Source: an uncultured Bacilli bacterium
GTDB lineage: Bacteria; Bacillota_I; Bacilli_A; RFN20; CAG-449
Length of the DNA stretch: 61,585 nucleotides
Direction: 5' to 3'
NCBI GenBank assembly: GCA_944332525.1
Contig: CALVKD010000001.1
Coordinates: forward strand, 113,841-175,425
Below, piece after piece: positions 31,048-55,991 of this stretch. Numbering within the stretch: position 1 is the stretch's first letter; each line of letters begins with the position of its first letter. Position numbers and translations under genes: made by a program. The notes under the pieces are model-generated. The model did not search any database. It saw only the letters and a list, made by a program, of their open reading frames with translations, and was not told the origin of the DNA.

Positions 31048-32496
31048 TTAGAGACGTTTCTTTTGTTCTTCAATCATTCTATCAATTTCTTCTTCAGAGA
31101 GATTATCTTCTTTCTTATCTCTTAAGATAGCATTAAGGATAATACCGAGAATCATTGATAATGCTGTCGAAGTGAATGTTGCAGTTGAATCGCCGAGAGT
31201 GAAGGAAATAGTTAATCCACCAATACCTACAACAAGAATGACAGAAGCGATAATTATATTGTTAGTGCGGTCGAAGTTAATTTTTTCATTGATTAACATC
31301 TTAACACCAGATGAAGCGATGAAGCCATAAAGAATTAAGCTAACACCACCAGTAATGCACTTAGGCATTGTTTCAAGAACAGCGGTTAACGGACCGACAA
31401 AGCCGAATAAAATTGTTAAGATACATGCTAAGAAGATAACGCCAACTGAAGCGATTCTAGTAACACCGACGACTGCGACATTTTCACCATAAGTTGTATT
31501 TGCAGCACCGCATAAGACACCAGAAACTGCTGTTGCAACACCATCACCGATTAAGGTTCTAGTGATACCTGGTTCGCCATTGAGTAAATCTCTTCCGATG
31601 ATATTACCGACGTTTTTGTGGTCACCGATATGTTCGCAAATTGTAACGAGTGATACTGGAGCAAAGATGATGAAGACTGATCCGAGCATCATTGGAGTAA
31701 ATTGAACTTCTTGATTGATAGCGTTAAGGAACATAAAGTCGACATTGATATATGATTTCCAGCTTGTCCAATCCAGAGAAGTTAATGGAGTAAGGTCAAC
31801 GATTTGAAGTGCTGAAACACCAGCTGCTCTACCGATTAAAGTAAGAATTAATGAGAGTACGTAAGCTGAACCCATACCGATAACAAACGGGATTAAAGAA
31901 ACCATTTTCTTACCGAAGTGAGAGCAGATAGCAGTGATAAACATTGCTACTAAACCCATTAATAATGACATATATTGTGAGCCACCAGCGACATCGACTG
32001 TATTCATATTAGCAACTGCTGATGTAGCTAAACCTAAGCCGATAACCATGATGACTGGTCCGATAACTACTGGAGGTAATAACTTATTAAGCCATTTTGT
32101 ACCGAACTTTTTAATTAATAATGCGACGACGACATAGATAATTCCTACAAGAATCATACCTAAGATGACTGCGAGGAAGTTTCTGTTCATATTACCAGGT
32201 GTGGTAATAAACTGTAAACCTTCTTGGCTGACGCCAATACCGAGTGCCGCTATCATTGCTGAAATATATGCAAATGATGATGCCAAGAAAACCGGGCTCT
32301 TACCTTTTGTTGCGATAATGTAAATGATAGTACCAACACCAGCACTGATCAAGGTAGGTCCGATAGCCAATCCGGTCTGCCATGCAACAGTGATACATGC
32401 GACAAGCATCGCAAAGATGTGTTGGAATGCGAATAAAATCCAGCTTCTAATCTTCTTAGGATTTTCATTCACGTCAAGAATTAATTTCTGTGCCAT
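31048..32496 (-). CDS. uraA: uracil permease (NCS2 family)
   Basis: Membrane symporter that imports uracil for pyrimidine salvage. 482 residues with about 14 hydrophobic segments. The signature NTTYGENVAVVGVTRIAS near residue 330 fits uracil permeases better than xanthine permeases, and QYMSLLMGLVAMF and VSLVTICEHIGDH are also typical. A charged tail ends it. AAAGGGAG lies before the ATG. The 150-base leader holds a small peptide gene and an intrinsic terminator, so expression is probably attenuated by a pyrimidine signal. Confidence 0.93.
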   Translation of the reverse strand: MAQKLILDVNENPKKIRSWILFAFQHIFAMLVACITVAWQTGLAIGPTLISAGVGTIIYIIATKGKSPVFLASSFAYISAMIAALGIGVSQEGLQFITTPGNMNRNFLAVILGMILVGIIYVVVALLIKKFGTKWLNKLLPPVVIGPVIMVIGLGLATSAVANMNTVDVAGGSQYMSLLMGLVAMFITAICSHFGKKMVSLIPFVIGMGSAYVLSLILTLIGRAAGVSALQIVDLTPLTSLDWTSWKSYINVDFMFLNAINQEVQFTPMMLGSVFIIFAPVSLVTICEHIGDHKNVGNIIGRDLLNGEPGITRTLIGDGVATAVSGVLCGAANTTYGENVAVVGVTRIASVGVIFLACILTILFGFVGPLTAVLETMPKCITGGVSLILYGFIASSGVKMLINEKINFDRTNNIIIASVILVVGIGGLTISFTLGDSTATFTSTALSMILGIILNAILRDKKEDNLSEEEIDRMIEEQKKRL

Positions 32497-32521
32497 GTTT
32501 TTTTCTCCCTTTCAAATTCTC

Positions 32522-32549
32522 AAAAAAAAACTTGTCCCTAAAGACAAGT
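32522..32549 (-). terminator. attenuator hairpin in the uraA leader
   Basis: ACTTGTC/GACAAGT stem with a six-base loop (32549-32530) followed by nine T. It lies between the leader peptide and uraA, so read-through is required for uraA expression. Confidence 0.85.
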
Positions 32550-32552
32550 ATT

Positions 32553-32624
32553 TCATGAGATAACAAATAATAAAAACTTTGAGCGTAAGATAAATTTGGC
32601 TGTGTTCGTCGCTAAATGCTTCAT
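32553..32624 (-). CDS. uraA leader peptide (23 residues)
   Basis: ATG 32624 preceded by GAGGGA with six bases between; 23 codons ending in TGA at 32555-32553. The peptide is basic, then hydrophobic (ends KFLLFVIS). Its codons for FLLFV form a U-rich tract at 32576-32560, and the stop codon is three bases before the attenuator hairpin. A ribosome finishing this peptide would cover the 5' arm of the hairpin. This is the arrangement of pyrimidine-sensing pyrBI and pyrE leaders in enterobacteria, where RNA polymerase pauses at U-runs when UTP is low. Function is inferred from layout. No PyrR-binding sequence is visible. Confidence 0.65.
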   Translation of the reverse strand: MKHLATNTAKFILRSKFLLFVIS

Positions 32625-32654
32625 AAATCTTCCCTCGAAATTTCTATCTTGCTT

Positions 32655-32682
32655 ATTATAGCATGCCAAAGTTTCTTGTAAA
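32655..32682 (-). promoter_or_regulatory. promoter of the uraA transcript
   Basis: TTTACA at 32682-32677 and TATAAT at 32660-32655 with a 16-base spacer. The start site is predicted near 32648, which gives a leader of about 150 bases. Confidence 0.75.
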
Positions 32683-52445: not shown

Positions 52446-53025
52446 TTTCTTTCTCTTTCTGTTTTAAAATGTCTTCTTCAACTTCGTTCGTCACTTGCTC
52501 TTTTTCTTTATCTTTTGTGAAAATAATAGCTATTGCAAACATAACGATTGAGCAAGTTAGGCACATATCGGCAAAGTTAAAAACCGGAAAATCATAGAAT
52601 CCAAATAGTCTAAACCTTAAGAAATCAATAACGCCTGGCGTTCCGTAAATTCCGACGCGGTCAATTAAATTGCCTGTGCACCCCGGGATAAATAAATAAA
52701 GAGCGATGCGGTATAAGATAGGTAATTTATTAAACTTTTTAATTAAGAAATATGTTGAGACGATTGTTCCGATAACGGAAATAATTGCTAATAATACTCT
52801 ACCAAATGAAGTATCGGCTAAAAAGCCAGCTAATGCTCCACGGTTAAACGTTAAATAAATCCAAAAGAAATCTTTTATTACTACGATATTCGCTCCTTCT
52901 TTTCCGTCAAAATGATAATAAACCACTAATTTAGTGATAATATCAATAGCTAAAAGACCGACAATAGTAACAATGCAAACAATTAAATTGATAACAAAAC
53001 GTCTATCTTTCAAGGAGTTTTTCAT
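52426..53025 (-). CDS. lspA: lipoprotein signal peptidase II
   Basis: Membrane aspartic protease that cleaves lipoprotein signal peptides; it serves the lipoproteins in this window. 199 residues, with four membrane helices. Motifs: TFNRGALAGFLAD near 58, the first catalytic aspartate in TGNLIDRVG near 117, and the second in FNFADMCLT near 150. A charged cytoplasmic tail of about 25 residues makes it longer than the usual 150-170. It overlaps ileS by 23 bases. Confidence 0.95.
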   Translation of the reverse strand: MKNSLKDRRFVINLIVCIVTIVGLLAIDIITKLVVYYHFDGKEGANIVVIKDFFWIYLTFNRGALAGFLADTSFGRVLLAIISVIGTIVSTYFLIKKFNKLPILYRIALYLFIPGCTGNLIDRVGIYGTPGVIDFLRFRLFGFYDFPVFNFADMCLTCSIVMFAIAIIFTKDKEKEQVTNEVEEDILKQKEKENEVSSN

Positions 53026-55750
53026 CTTCTAAAACCTTTTTGCATCTCGCGCAAAGAGCTAAATCATTAACAAAGAAGACATCATCGTGATATGACCAGC
53101 AACGCGCGCATTTCGTGCCGGTATGCCGTGAAACGACAATTTCATTTGCTTCACTGTTTTCAATAACAACTTTGCTAACGATGAAGATATCTTTTAATTC
53201 TTCATTTGTGAAATTAGCTAATAATTCTTTAACTTTTTCATCGTTAACTTTTAATGTGACAACAGCTTCTAACCCAGATCCGATTAAGCTTTCAGAACGA
53301 GCCTTTTCTAACTCTCTCATAACTTTATCACGGAAATCATGGAATAAAGCATATTCTTCAAGTAATGATTCATCAAAATTATGACTCTCTTTAACCATGT
53401 CTTCTAAAGCGACATGGGAATATTTATGATATGGAATATTTTGATAAACTTCATCCATTGTGAAAACTAAAACTGGAGCTAAGAGAATATTAATGGTTGT
53501 AACAATTTGATAGATAACTGATTGATATTCTTTTCTTCTTGGTGAGTTAGCCTCATCGCAATATAAAGAATCTTTTGCAACGCTGGCGTAGAAAGCCGAA
53601 ACGTCTTGAACGAGGAAAGAAAGAATTTCTTGAGTTGCCGAAGCAAAGTCATAATTATTGTAATCAGTTAAAACATCGTTTTTAACTTTTTCTAAAGTAG
53701 CTAAGAGATATTGGCCAAGTTTAGAATATTTCTTGACCATATCAGTTTCAGGGTTGAAAGATTTATTCTCGCCATCGCTTAAATTAGCTAATAAGAACTT
53801 AAATGTATTTCTAATTTTTCTATATGTATCGGCAACAGTATTGATAATACTTTGTGAAATTCTAACATCGGCTTGATAATCAATAGAAGCTGTCCACAGA
53901 CGTAAAATATCGGCACCTGATTGACTGATAACCTTATTTGGATCCAGTCCGTTCCCTAAAGACTTACTCATCTTCATACCGTTTCCGTCCATAACAAATC
54001 CGTGGGAAACAACGGTCTTATACGGAGCATGTCCGGTGACTGCAACTGAGATAATTAATGAAGAGTTAAACCATCCCCGGTATTGATCAGCACCTTCTAA
54101 ATAGAGATCTGCCGGGAATTTATTTCCGCGAGCTCTTAAAACTCCGTTAAATGATGATCCGGAATCAAACCAGACATCCATAATATCTTTTTCTTTTCTA
54201 AATGGAGCTAATTCTGGATGTTTTTCTTTATAACCAGCAGGCAATAAATCATCGACATCACTTTCAGCCCAAATTCCCGAACCATATTGTCCAACTAAGT
54301 CAGCAATATGATCAAAGATTTCCTTCTCCATTAAAGCATTTCCGTTTTTATCATAGATAATTGGAAGAGGAACACCCCAAGCTCTTTGGCGAGAAATACA
54401 CCAGTCCTCCCGATCTTTAATCATATTATGCATACGGATTTTGCCCCATGAAGGAATCCAATTGACCTTTTCGATTTCATCGAGCAATTTTTCGCGGATT
54501 TTATCAATTGAGCAGAACCATTGCGGTGTCGCTCTAAAGATAACCGGCTTTTTAGTTCTCCAGTCATGTGGATAGCTATGGGTGATTTCATTTAATCCAA
54601 GCAATGCGCCTGTTTCAGTTAACATTTTGATGACTTCTTCATTAGCGTCTTCGTAGAAAAGTCCTTTTAAGCGGTCGCCGACAGTATCATCCATCTTACC
54701 GTGTTCATCAACTGGGCAGTATGGAGGAATATGATATTTTTTACAGACATTGTAGTCATCCTCACCATGGCCCGGTGCGATATGGACGCAGCCAGTACCG
54801 GCATCACTGGTAACATAAGCACCTTGAATAACTATAGATTCGCGGTCATATAAAGGATGTTTGACAGTAATATATTCAGTTTCTCTGCCTTTAAAGGTCT
54901 TAATCAAGGTACATTCGCTCAAGCCTAAATCAGCTTTCATTTTTTCTTCTAACTCAGTGAGGAAAACAAAGTTTCCCTTATCGGTTTTAAATAAACCATA
55001 TTCAAGATCTGGGTTTAAAGCGATAGCTAAGTTAGCCGGAATTGTCCAAGGTGTTGTCGTCCAAATAACGAAATAATCACCTTTATTTAATAATCCCTTG
55101 CCGTCTATGACCTCAAAGCGAACATAAATTGTCTTAGCTTTAATATCGTGATATTCAATTTCAGCTTCAGCTAAAGCAGATTCAGACGAAGGTGACCAAT
55201 AAACCGGTTTTAATCCTTTAAAAATTAATCCTTGTAAAGCCATTGAAGCAAAAACTTCAATTTGTGATTTTTCAAATTCTTTATCGAGTGTTAAATAACG
55301 TTTATCAAAATCAGCAAGGATGCCTAAGCGTTCAATTTGGCTTTTTTGACGCGCTACTTGCTGCAAAGCGAATTCTGTGCATTTTTCTCTAAATTCTTTA
55401 ATCGGTGTCGTCTTTCTATTTACACCTTTTTTAGTTACCGCATTTTCAATTGGTAACCCGTGGGTATCCCAACCTGGGAAAAATGGTGCATAGTAACCAT
55501 CCATATTCTTAAAACGGATAATTATATCCTTAAGAATTCTGTTTAACATATGCCCGCAGTGCATATCACCATTTGCATATGGAGGTCCATCATGAAGCAT
55601 AAAGCAAGGCTGTTTTTCATTTTTCTTTAAAATTTGTTGATACAAATGTTCTTCATTCCAGATTTTTAACATTGCCGGTTCTTTATTAGCTAAATTGCCG
55701 CGCATCTCAAATCCAGTTTTACCCATCAAGAGAGTTTTGTTAATTTCCAT
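53003..55750 (-). CDS. ileS: isoleucyl-tRNA synthetase
   Basis: Class Ia synthetase, 915 residues, usual for the bacterial type. Seen: HDGPPYANGDMHCGH near 53 (HIGH motif), editing domain (CVHIAPGHGEDDY), the WISRQRAWGVPLP-like CISRQRAWGVPLP, KMSKSLGNG near 595, and a C-terminal zinc finger CARCWSY...CARCKK. AAAGGA precedes the ATG. Controlled by a T-box. Confidence 0.97.
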   Translation of the reverse strand: MEINKTLLMGKTGFEMRGNLANKEPAMLKIWNEEHLYQQILKKNEKQPCFMLHDGPPYANGDMHCGHMLNRILKDIIIRFKNMDGYYAPFFPGWDTHGLPIENAVTKKGVNRKTTPIKEFREKCTEFALQQVARQKSQIERLGILADFDKRYLTLDKEFEKSQIEVFASMALQGLIFKGLKPVYWSPSSESALAEAEIEYHDIKAKTIYVRFEVIDGKGLLNKGDYFVIWTTTPWTIPANLAIALNPDLEYGLFKTDKGNFVFLTELEEKMKADLGLSECTLIKTFKGRETEYITVKHPLYDRESIVIQGAYVTSDAGTGCVHIAPGHGEDDYNVCKKYHIPPYCPVDEHGKMDDTVGDRLKGLFYEDANEEVIKMLTETGALLGLNEITHSYPHDWRTKKPVIFRATPQWFCSIDKIREKLLDEIEKVNWIPSWGKIRMHNMIKDREDWCISRQRAWGVPLPIIYDKNGNALMEKEIFDHIADLVGQYGSGIWAESDVDDLLPAGYKEKHPELAPFRKEKDIMDVWFDSGSSFNGVLRARGNKFPADLYLEGADQYRGWFNSSLIISVAVTGHAPYKTVVSHGFVMDGNGMKMSKSLGNGLDPNKVISQSGADILRLWTASIDYQADVRISQSIINTVADTYRKIRNTFKFLLANLSDGENKSFNPETDMVKKYSKLGQYLLATLEKVKNDVLTDYNNYDFASATQEILSFLVQDVSAFYASVAKDSLYCDEANSPRRKEYQSVIYQIVTTINILLAPVLVFTMDEVYQNIPYHKYSHVALEDMVKESHNFDESLLEEYALFHDFRDKVMRELEKARSESLIGSGLEAVVTLKVNDEKVKELLANFTNEELKDIFIVSKVVIENSEANEIVVSRHTGTKCARCWSYHDDVFFVNDLALCARCKKVLEDEKLLER

Positions 55751-55766
55751 AACTATCCTTTCTAAT

Positions 55767-55985
55767 AAAAAAAACGTCCTATCTAAGGACGCTATTAACG
55801 TGGTACCACCTTAGTTCCTGAATTACAGGCACTCATTTGCTCGGTAACGACGAGATACGAATAAACTTACTAATTTCAGCTTACTAGCTCAGAAGTGATA
55901 AGTTTCTAGTCAAATCAATCATTTTCCACCAACCAATGACTCTCTATTTAACTCTACCTAGGCTTTTGTCTTCATCATAGCCGCT
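55767..55985 (-). promoter_or_regulatory. T-box riboswitch of ileS
   Basis: T-box TGGTACCACG at about 55810-55799; terminator CGTCCT/AGGACG at 55791-55775 with T8 after it; stem I elements AGAGAG and TTGGTGGAAAATG upstream. An AUC isoleucine codon at 55899-55897, followed by a purine, sits where the specifier is expected and agrees with the gene downstream. Confidence 0.94.
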
Positions 55986-55991
55986 AGATAT

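Follow-up and report, generated by a model that had tools for sequence, protein, structure and literature searches.

The uracil permease gene (uraA) of a 61,585-nt stretch of DNA from an uncultured Bacilli bacterium (hereafter the window) is preceded by a leader that probably serves as a ribosome-coupled, UTP-sensing transcription attenuator for uracil uptake, working like that of the E. coli pyrBI operon. The leader carries a short, presumably translated frame that ends beside an intrinsic terminator; this anatomy is conserved at uraA in relatives, where it replaces control by PyrR. From it we infer that UTP is the signal, that RNA polymerase pauses at a U-rich tract in the distal part of the frame, and that a ribosome occludes the terminator hairpin.

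Anatomy of the uraA leader

All parts of the leader lie on the minus strand, upstream of uraA. The ribosome sites, leader frame and U-tract are as read from the sequence:

32655..32682, minus strand: promoter, with −35 TTTACA at 32682-32677, a 16 nt spacer and −10 TATAAT at 32660-32655; 11/12 consensus matches, TG ahead of the −10 (extended −10)
32636-32631, minus strand: leader ribosome site, GAGGGA; a ribosome site is also present in most relatives
32553..32624, minus strand: leader ORF of 23 codons plus TGA, ATG at 32624-32622 and TGA at 32555-32553; peptide MKHLATNTAKFILRSKFLLFVIS
32576-32560, minus strand: U-tract TTTTTATTATTTGTTAT within the last leader codons, proposed UTP-sensitive pause region
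32549-32530 and 32530-32522, minus strand: intrinsic terminator (attenuator), hairpin ACTTGTC-TTTAGG-GACAAGT followed by T9; 7 perfect pairs, 8 with G-U, −8.1 kcal/mol
32505..32510, minus strand: uraA ribosome site, AGGGAG
31048..32496, minus strand: uraA-like uracil permease of the NCS2 family, 482 aa, ATG at 32496; PF00860 3.3e-66, PRK10720 2e-77

A sequence-only reading of this locus had described the promoter, the 23-codon ORF with its GAGGGA site, the U-rich tract, the spacing from TGA to hairpin, the 7-bp hairpin with its T9 and the uraA gene; every detail was right, base for base. The leader TGA is separated from the hairpin by the three bases AAT, and the T content of the last 45 nt of the leader ORF ranks in the top 3% among same-length segments of uraA. 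The terminator exceeds chance occurrence (1 found, 0.1 expected in shuffled sequence), the promoter match by itself does not (1 found, 1.6 expected), and ~7.5% of shuffles produce an ORF that stops at the hairpin when the window locus is taken alone. The best model for the uraA product is the PRK10720 uracil permease, with a score under the equivalog cut-off of that model.

The uraA gene starts 33 nt past the hairpin stem. With the T-run and the uraA ribosome site lying in this interval, uraA can be transcribed only by polymerase that has passed the terminator. This crossing speaks against an unregulated locus, in which the ORF would be a small gene like any other, equipped with a terminator, or the hairpin a constitutive partial terminator. 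Such a reading draws on the ordinary genes of the window, whose terminators lie a median of 19 nt from the stop codon (n = 9); closeness of stop and hairpin is in itself unremarkable. Since the same layout recurs at uraA across the class and swaps with PyrR elements there, as described below, the unregulated reading is very improbable.

Conservation of the layout among relatives

The upstream regions of uraA were sampled from the genus, family, order and class of the window genome. A leader ORF was scored where an ATG-initiated ORF of 18-60 codons ended within −14 to +18 nt of a hairpin. In the order, 71 uraA upstream regions bear a terminator, and an ORF, 20-45 codons long, ends at the hairpin in 57 of these (a count that includes three, L092, L114 and L118, resembling the ends of upstream genes), where shuffles of the upstream sequence give an expectation of 9.1; the layout is thus not due to chance. 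The ORFs of 47 distinct leaders have a median length of 31 codons, and their stops end a median of +2 nt relative to the start of the hairpin (range −8 to +15), the initial bases of the terminator stem being in many cases those of the stop codon. The median gap from stem to uraA is 32 nt, which in most leaders leaves no room for a second promoter and ribosome site. In one leader (L041, genome G038), the sole clear case here, the ORF extends through the terminator, like E. coli pyrL. A conserved −10 box could not be separated from the AT-rich background across the leaders (31/47, with 29.7 in shuffles).

Leader ORFs were found in about 11 families of the class (f1, f2, f3, f4, f8, f11, f12, f13, f17, f23 and f26, in the labels of this analysis). 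Genomes of f11 read UGA as Trp, as indicated by in-frame TGA codons in their uraA genes, and this code was applied in reading their leader ORFs. The comparison with related leaders that the sequence-only reading had proposed bore it out: relatives retain the leader ORF, its distance from stop to hairpin and the U-rich tract, while the peptide varies. Hairpins lacking the ORF, which it had named as contrary evidence, occur mainly in genomes with PyrR or as the terminators of other genes. The reach of the device far past the lineage of the window genome is one of three points absent from that reading, the others being a GGG-U-CCC element in relatives and a pairing of the leader ribosome site with the U-tract.

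Replacement of PyrR control

The window genome measures 1.7 Mb and is 98.95% complete. PyrR was absent, at the cut-off of its model, from this genome and from all 18 genomes of its family, and is present in 9 of the 279 genomes of the order; the PyrR-binding RNA element (RF00515) was not found in the window leader. Both the suggestion to look for pyrR in the genome and the remark that no PyrR-binding sequence is visible were answered in the same direction by these searches. What would recommend PyrR or a PyrR-like protein as the controller of this terminator is that Gram-positive bacteria usually rely on attenuation by PyrR (PMC13328217) and that other families of the class use it at uraA. Given the lack of both protein and site, such control is barely conceivable here and is refuted as far as the available genomes permit.

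At the level of the class, the two kinds of leader follow the presence of pyrR. PyrR-type leaders were recognized by a regular expression (TTTAA...CNGNGAG...AAGG); 19 of these occur in genomes with pyrR and one in a genome without it, this one (L192) being a false match that actually carries a leader ORF. Genomes with pyrR hold 26 uraA leaders, 19 of which are PyrR-type and three of which carry a leader ORF; in two of these three genomes pyrR adjoins a second permease, and in one it sits with a pyr operon. Genomes without pyrR account for 80 leader ORFs, or some 72-75 once about eight automatic calls that are likely ends of upstream genes (L092, L114, L118, L204, L205, L207, L209 and L213) are not counted. 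This distribution, PyrR-type leaders where pyrR is present and leader ORFs where it is absent, indicates that each device takes the place of the other. Although the counts lack phylogenetic independence, the single family f4 contains leaders of both kinds. Counting against a simple exchange, two mostly PyrR-less lineages (f27 and f20) have neither device at uraA.

Five of the PyrR-type uraA leaders (L111, L113 and L221-L223) adjoin pyrR itself. The element in L111 and L113, TTTAAAGCGTGCCTGTGAGCATACTAAG, scores 26.7 bits, so far under the Rfam gathering score of 54 that the Rfam model misses this variant of the element. At four further loci (L204, L205, L209 and L213; family f28 and one f16 genome), what looks like a second permease gene is followed by a terminator and then by uraA, possibly an attenuator at the stop of a full-length gene, as at rph-pyrE.

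Probable selection on the RNA rather than the peptide

The leader peptides are unalike between genera, and it is the frame and the position of the stop that are conserved. In pairs of close leaders, differences at codon positions 1, 2 and 3 number 32, 16 and 46, a moderate bias to position 3 with the frame kept (the pairs overlap). The distal 45 nt of the relatives' leaders are 46% T and 68% pyrimidine, as compared with 32% and 55% in segments of uraA. Perfect T5 and Y8 runs in the leaders do not exceed those in shuffles at the given composition, and long perfect T-runs were accordingly rejected as the signal; the enrichment is one of U and pyrimidine content. Synonymous codon use in the leaders also departs from that of their own uraA genes, with TTT at 0.69 (0.34 in uraA), GGG at 0.33 (0.06) and CCC at 0.20 (0.04). 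Because the genomes are AT-rich, drift does not explain the GGG and CCC excess, and these synonymous choices point to selection on the RNA. The excess of both codons is largely due to a GGG-U-rich-CCC element found in 11 of the 47 leaders (0.26 expected), ~28-41 nt ahead of the hairpin except for one at 72. The window leader lacks the G and C runs but does have the U-tract.

These codon data also bear on a ribosome-coupled attenuator that senses another cue, such as the supply of Phe, Leu or Ile, the general speed of translation, or a translation inhibitor. Codons for Phe, Leu, Ile and Ser abound in the distal halves of the ORFs (F 0.129, as against 0.052 proximally), and antibiotic-sensing leader peptides do occur in Bacillota (PMC6851288, PMC9226507). 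However, tandem repeats of any one residue or codon are missing, and the peptide is unconserved. An antiterminator hairpin, which amino-acid attenuators need, is likewise missing: potential partners for the 5' arm of the terminator in the leaders were no better than in shuffles (mean z +0.22). Amino-acid attenuation was rejected for the lack of tandem codons and of an antiterminator. In addition, a stall ahead of the U-tract would favour termination and not read-through, and the device governs a gene for uracil uptake, at which it replaces PyrR. Sensing of another cue is therefore unlikely, and UTP is the preferred signal.

RNA folding and a possible ribosome site-U-tract stem

The window leader, including its terminator, folds better than its shuffles (z −3.1). 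The fold contains one candidate element in addition to the attenuator:

32560..32650, minus strand: possible long-range stem pairing the 5' end of the transcript, including the leader ribosome site, with the U-tract; from the fold, duplex z −3.8

Comparable duplexes are found in G002 (z −3.7) and G011 (z −4.8), the three sequences being different. Over the 47 leaders the pairing is weak (mean z −0.35; pairing probability 0.53, as compared with 0.41), and it was rejected as a general feature, being strong only in the genus of the window and G011, with lesser cases elsewhere. As a guess, the stem may be an extra gate on leader translation in the window's genus.

The favourable fold and the retention of the stem in two relatives could instead be taken to mean that an RNA switch (this stem, or else a cryptic aptamer or protein site) governs termination and that the ORF is incidental. 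There is no overlap between stem and terminator, though, and the stem is lacking in most of the 47 leaders; the leaders share no conserved sequence, while the ORF is kept throughout. Rfam covariance models, riboswitches and T-boxes among them, gave nothing over the gathering score at the leader, and a T-box or known riboswitch was rejected for this lack of a match. An RNA switch of this sort is improbable beside an attenuator coupled to translation of the ORF.

Proposed mechanism

Because the layout is kept in so many relatives without PyrR, low UTP is probably sensed by a ribosome catching up with RNA polymerase. Transcription would begin about 30 bases ahead of the 23-codon ORF. With ample UTP, the polymerase would cross the U-rich end of the ORF quickly, the first ribosome would lag behind, and the hairpin would fold and leave uraA off. 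With low UTP, the polymerase would dwell in the U-tract long enough for the ribosome to reach the stop codon beside the hairpin, where it would cover the 5' arm and allow read-through into uraA. The default state would thus be the folded terminator, and the U-tract would make the pause UTP-dependent. In the window's genus the proposed gate would act earlier, fast transcription shutting the leader ORF through the stem and pausing letting a ribosome load.

Work on E. coli is consistent with such a geometry. A stop codon a few bases ahead of a terminator represses that terminator, and a distance of >27 nt abolishes the effect (PMC4824070); in pyrBI, coupling across pyrL prevents termination (PMC5021804). 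Counting against the mechanism, the Bacillota are classed as bacteria with runaway transcription, in which the polymerase outpaces the ribosomes (PMC13323073); coupling would therefore have to arise locally, by way of a pause, with termination as the default. The earlier proposal of translation-coupled control of pyrimidine salvage is supported by the conservation of the layout and the absence of PyrR, with UTP as the presumed signal. A broader extension, that pyrimidine uptake in many PyrR-less Bacilli lineages, Mycoplasma-type genomes included, is under conditional coupling, the ribosome catching up at this leader alone because of a UTP-starved pause, with the stem gate added in the window's genus, is offered tentatively as a conceivable generalization.

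Comparison with known systems

UTP-sensing, ribosome-coupled attenuation is an enterobacterial textbook device, and Bacillota are taught to use PyrR. With E. coli pyrBI the leader shares an ORF with a ribosome site (pyrL), a distal U-rich tract, an intrinsic terminator before a pyrimidine gene and the lack of an antiterminator; the pyrL of E. coli K-12, as read from its record, also has GCCGTTTTTCTTCCC, which resembles the GGG-U-CCC element of the relatives. The two differ in that there is no sequence homology, that the controlled gene is a salvage transporter rather than aspartate transcarbamylase, and that pyrL runs through the hairpin whereas the frame here stops at it. The E. coli device is UTP-sensitive and belongs to the Enterobacteria, and the leader in Bacilli is likened to it through anatomy; it may work like pyrBI by analogy, while descent from pyrBI cannot be claimed.

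The attenuator of E. coli pyrE in rph-pyrE is governed by ribosome-coupled read-through of a terminator just past a stop codon. It has the same placement of the terminator right after the stop of a translated frame, but that frame is the full gene rph and not a dedicated short ORF. PyrR-RNA attenuation of the pyr, pyrP and uraA genes of Bacillota also places a terminator in the leader, at the same gene and within the same class, but requires PyrR and its RNA site, both of which are absent here. The leader-peptide attenuators of the Bacillota antibiotic resistance genes tlrB and vmlR combine a short translated ORF, a terminator and polymerase pausing; unlike the leader described here, they sense antibiotic-stalled ribosomes through alternative hairpins and do not serve pyrimidine genes.

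No report of such a device was found in the literature searched (open-licence papers only). If the proposed mechanism is true, the wide occurrence of coupled attenuation among Bacilli without PyrR would mean that one regulator has repeatedly replaced another at the same gene, and would offer a natural reporter for local coupling within a phylum regarded as uncoupled. The gate formed by the ribosome site and U-tract would be a new kinetic step, absent from pyrBI. The leader further suggests a way in which uncultured Bacilli auxotrophic for pyrimidines, and Mycoplasma-type genomes, could regulate uracil uptake without a dedicated protein.

Pyrimidine genes and other leaders

The phosphoribosyltransferases of the window genome, named by eye from their sequences, are hpt, prs, apt, upp and a comF-type protein; pyrE was under its cut-off and pyrB was absent. 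Without pyrE and pyrB the organism should depend on pyrimidine uptake, and uracil uptake should therefore matter to it. The upp gene of this genome has no leader of the kind found at uraA. In PyrR-less relatives of one genus (g42, L160-L163), neither a leader ORF nor a terminator stands at the start of the de novo pyr operons, a point against the attenuator reading; close to the start codon there is a short inverted repeat, for example GGGTTCCAAAGGAATCCC in L161. A Rho RNA-binding domain was not found in the window genome, and the coding strands of the window genes are 52.5% purine.

Two further leaders were observed. An ordinary T-box leader in the window (55782-55987, minus strand) lies ahead of an isoleucyl-tRNA synthetase-like gene (53003-55750, minus strand). 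On another contig of the same genome (C70), at L004 1038-1084 (minus strand), a candidate PreQ1 riboswitch with a sub-threshold score of 27.5 bits (gathering score 39) precedes a QueT-like transporter gene that is divergent from upp.
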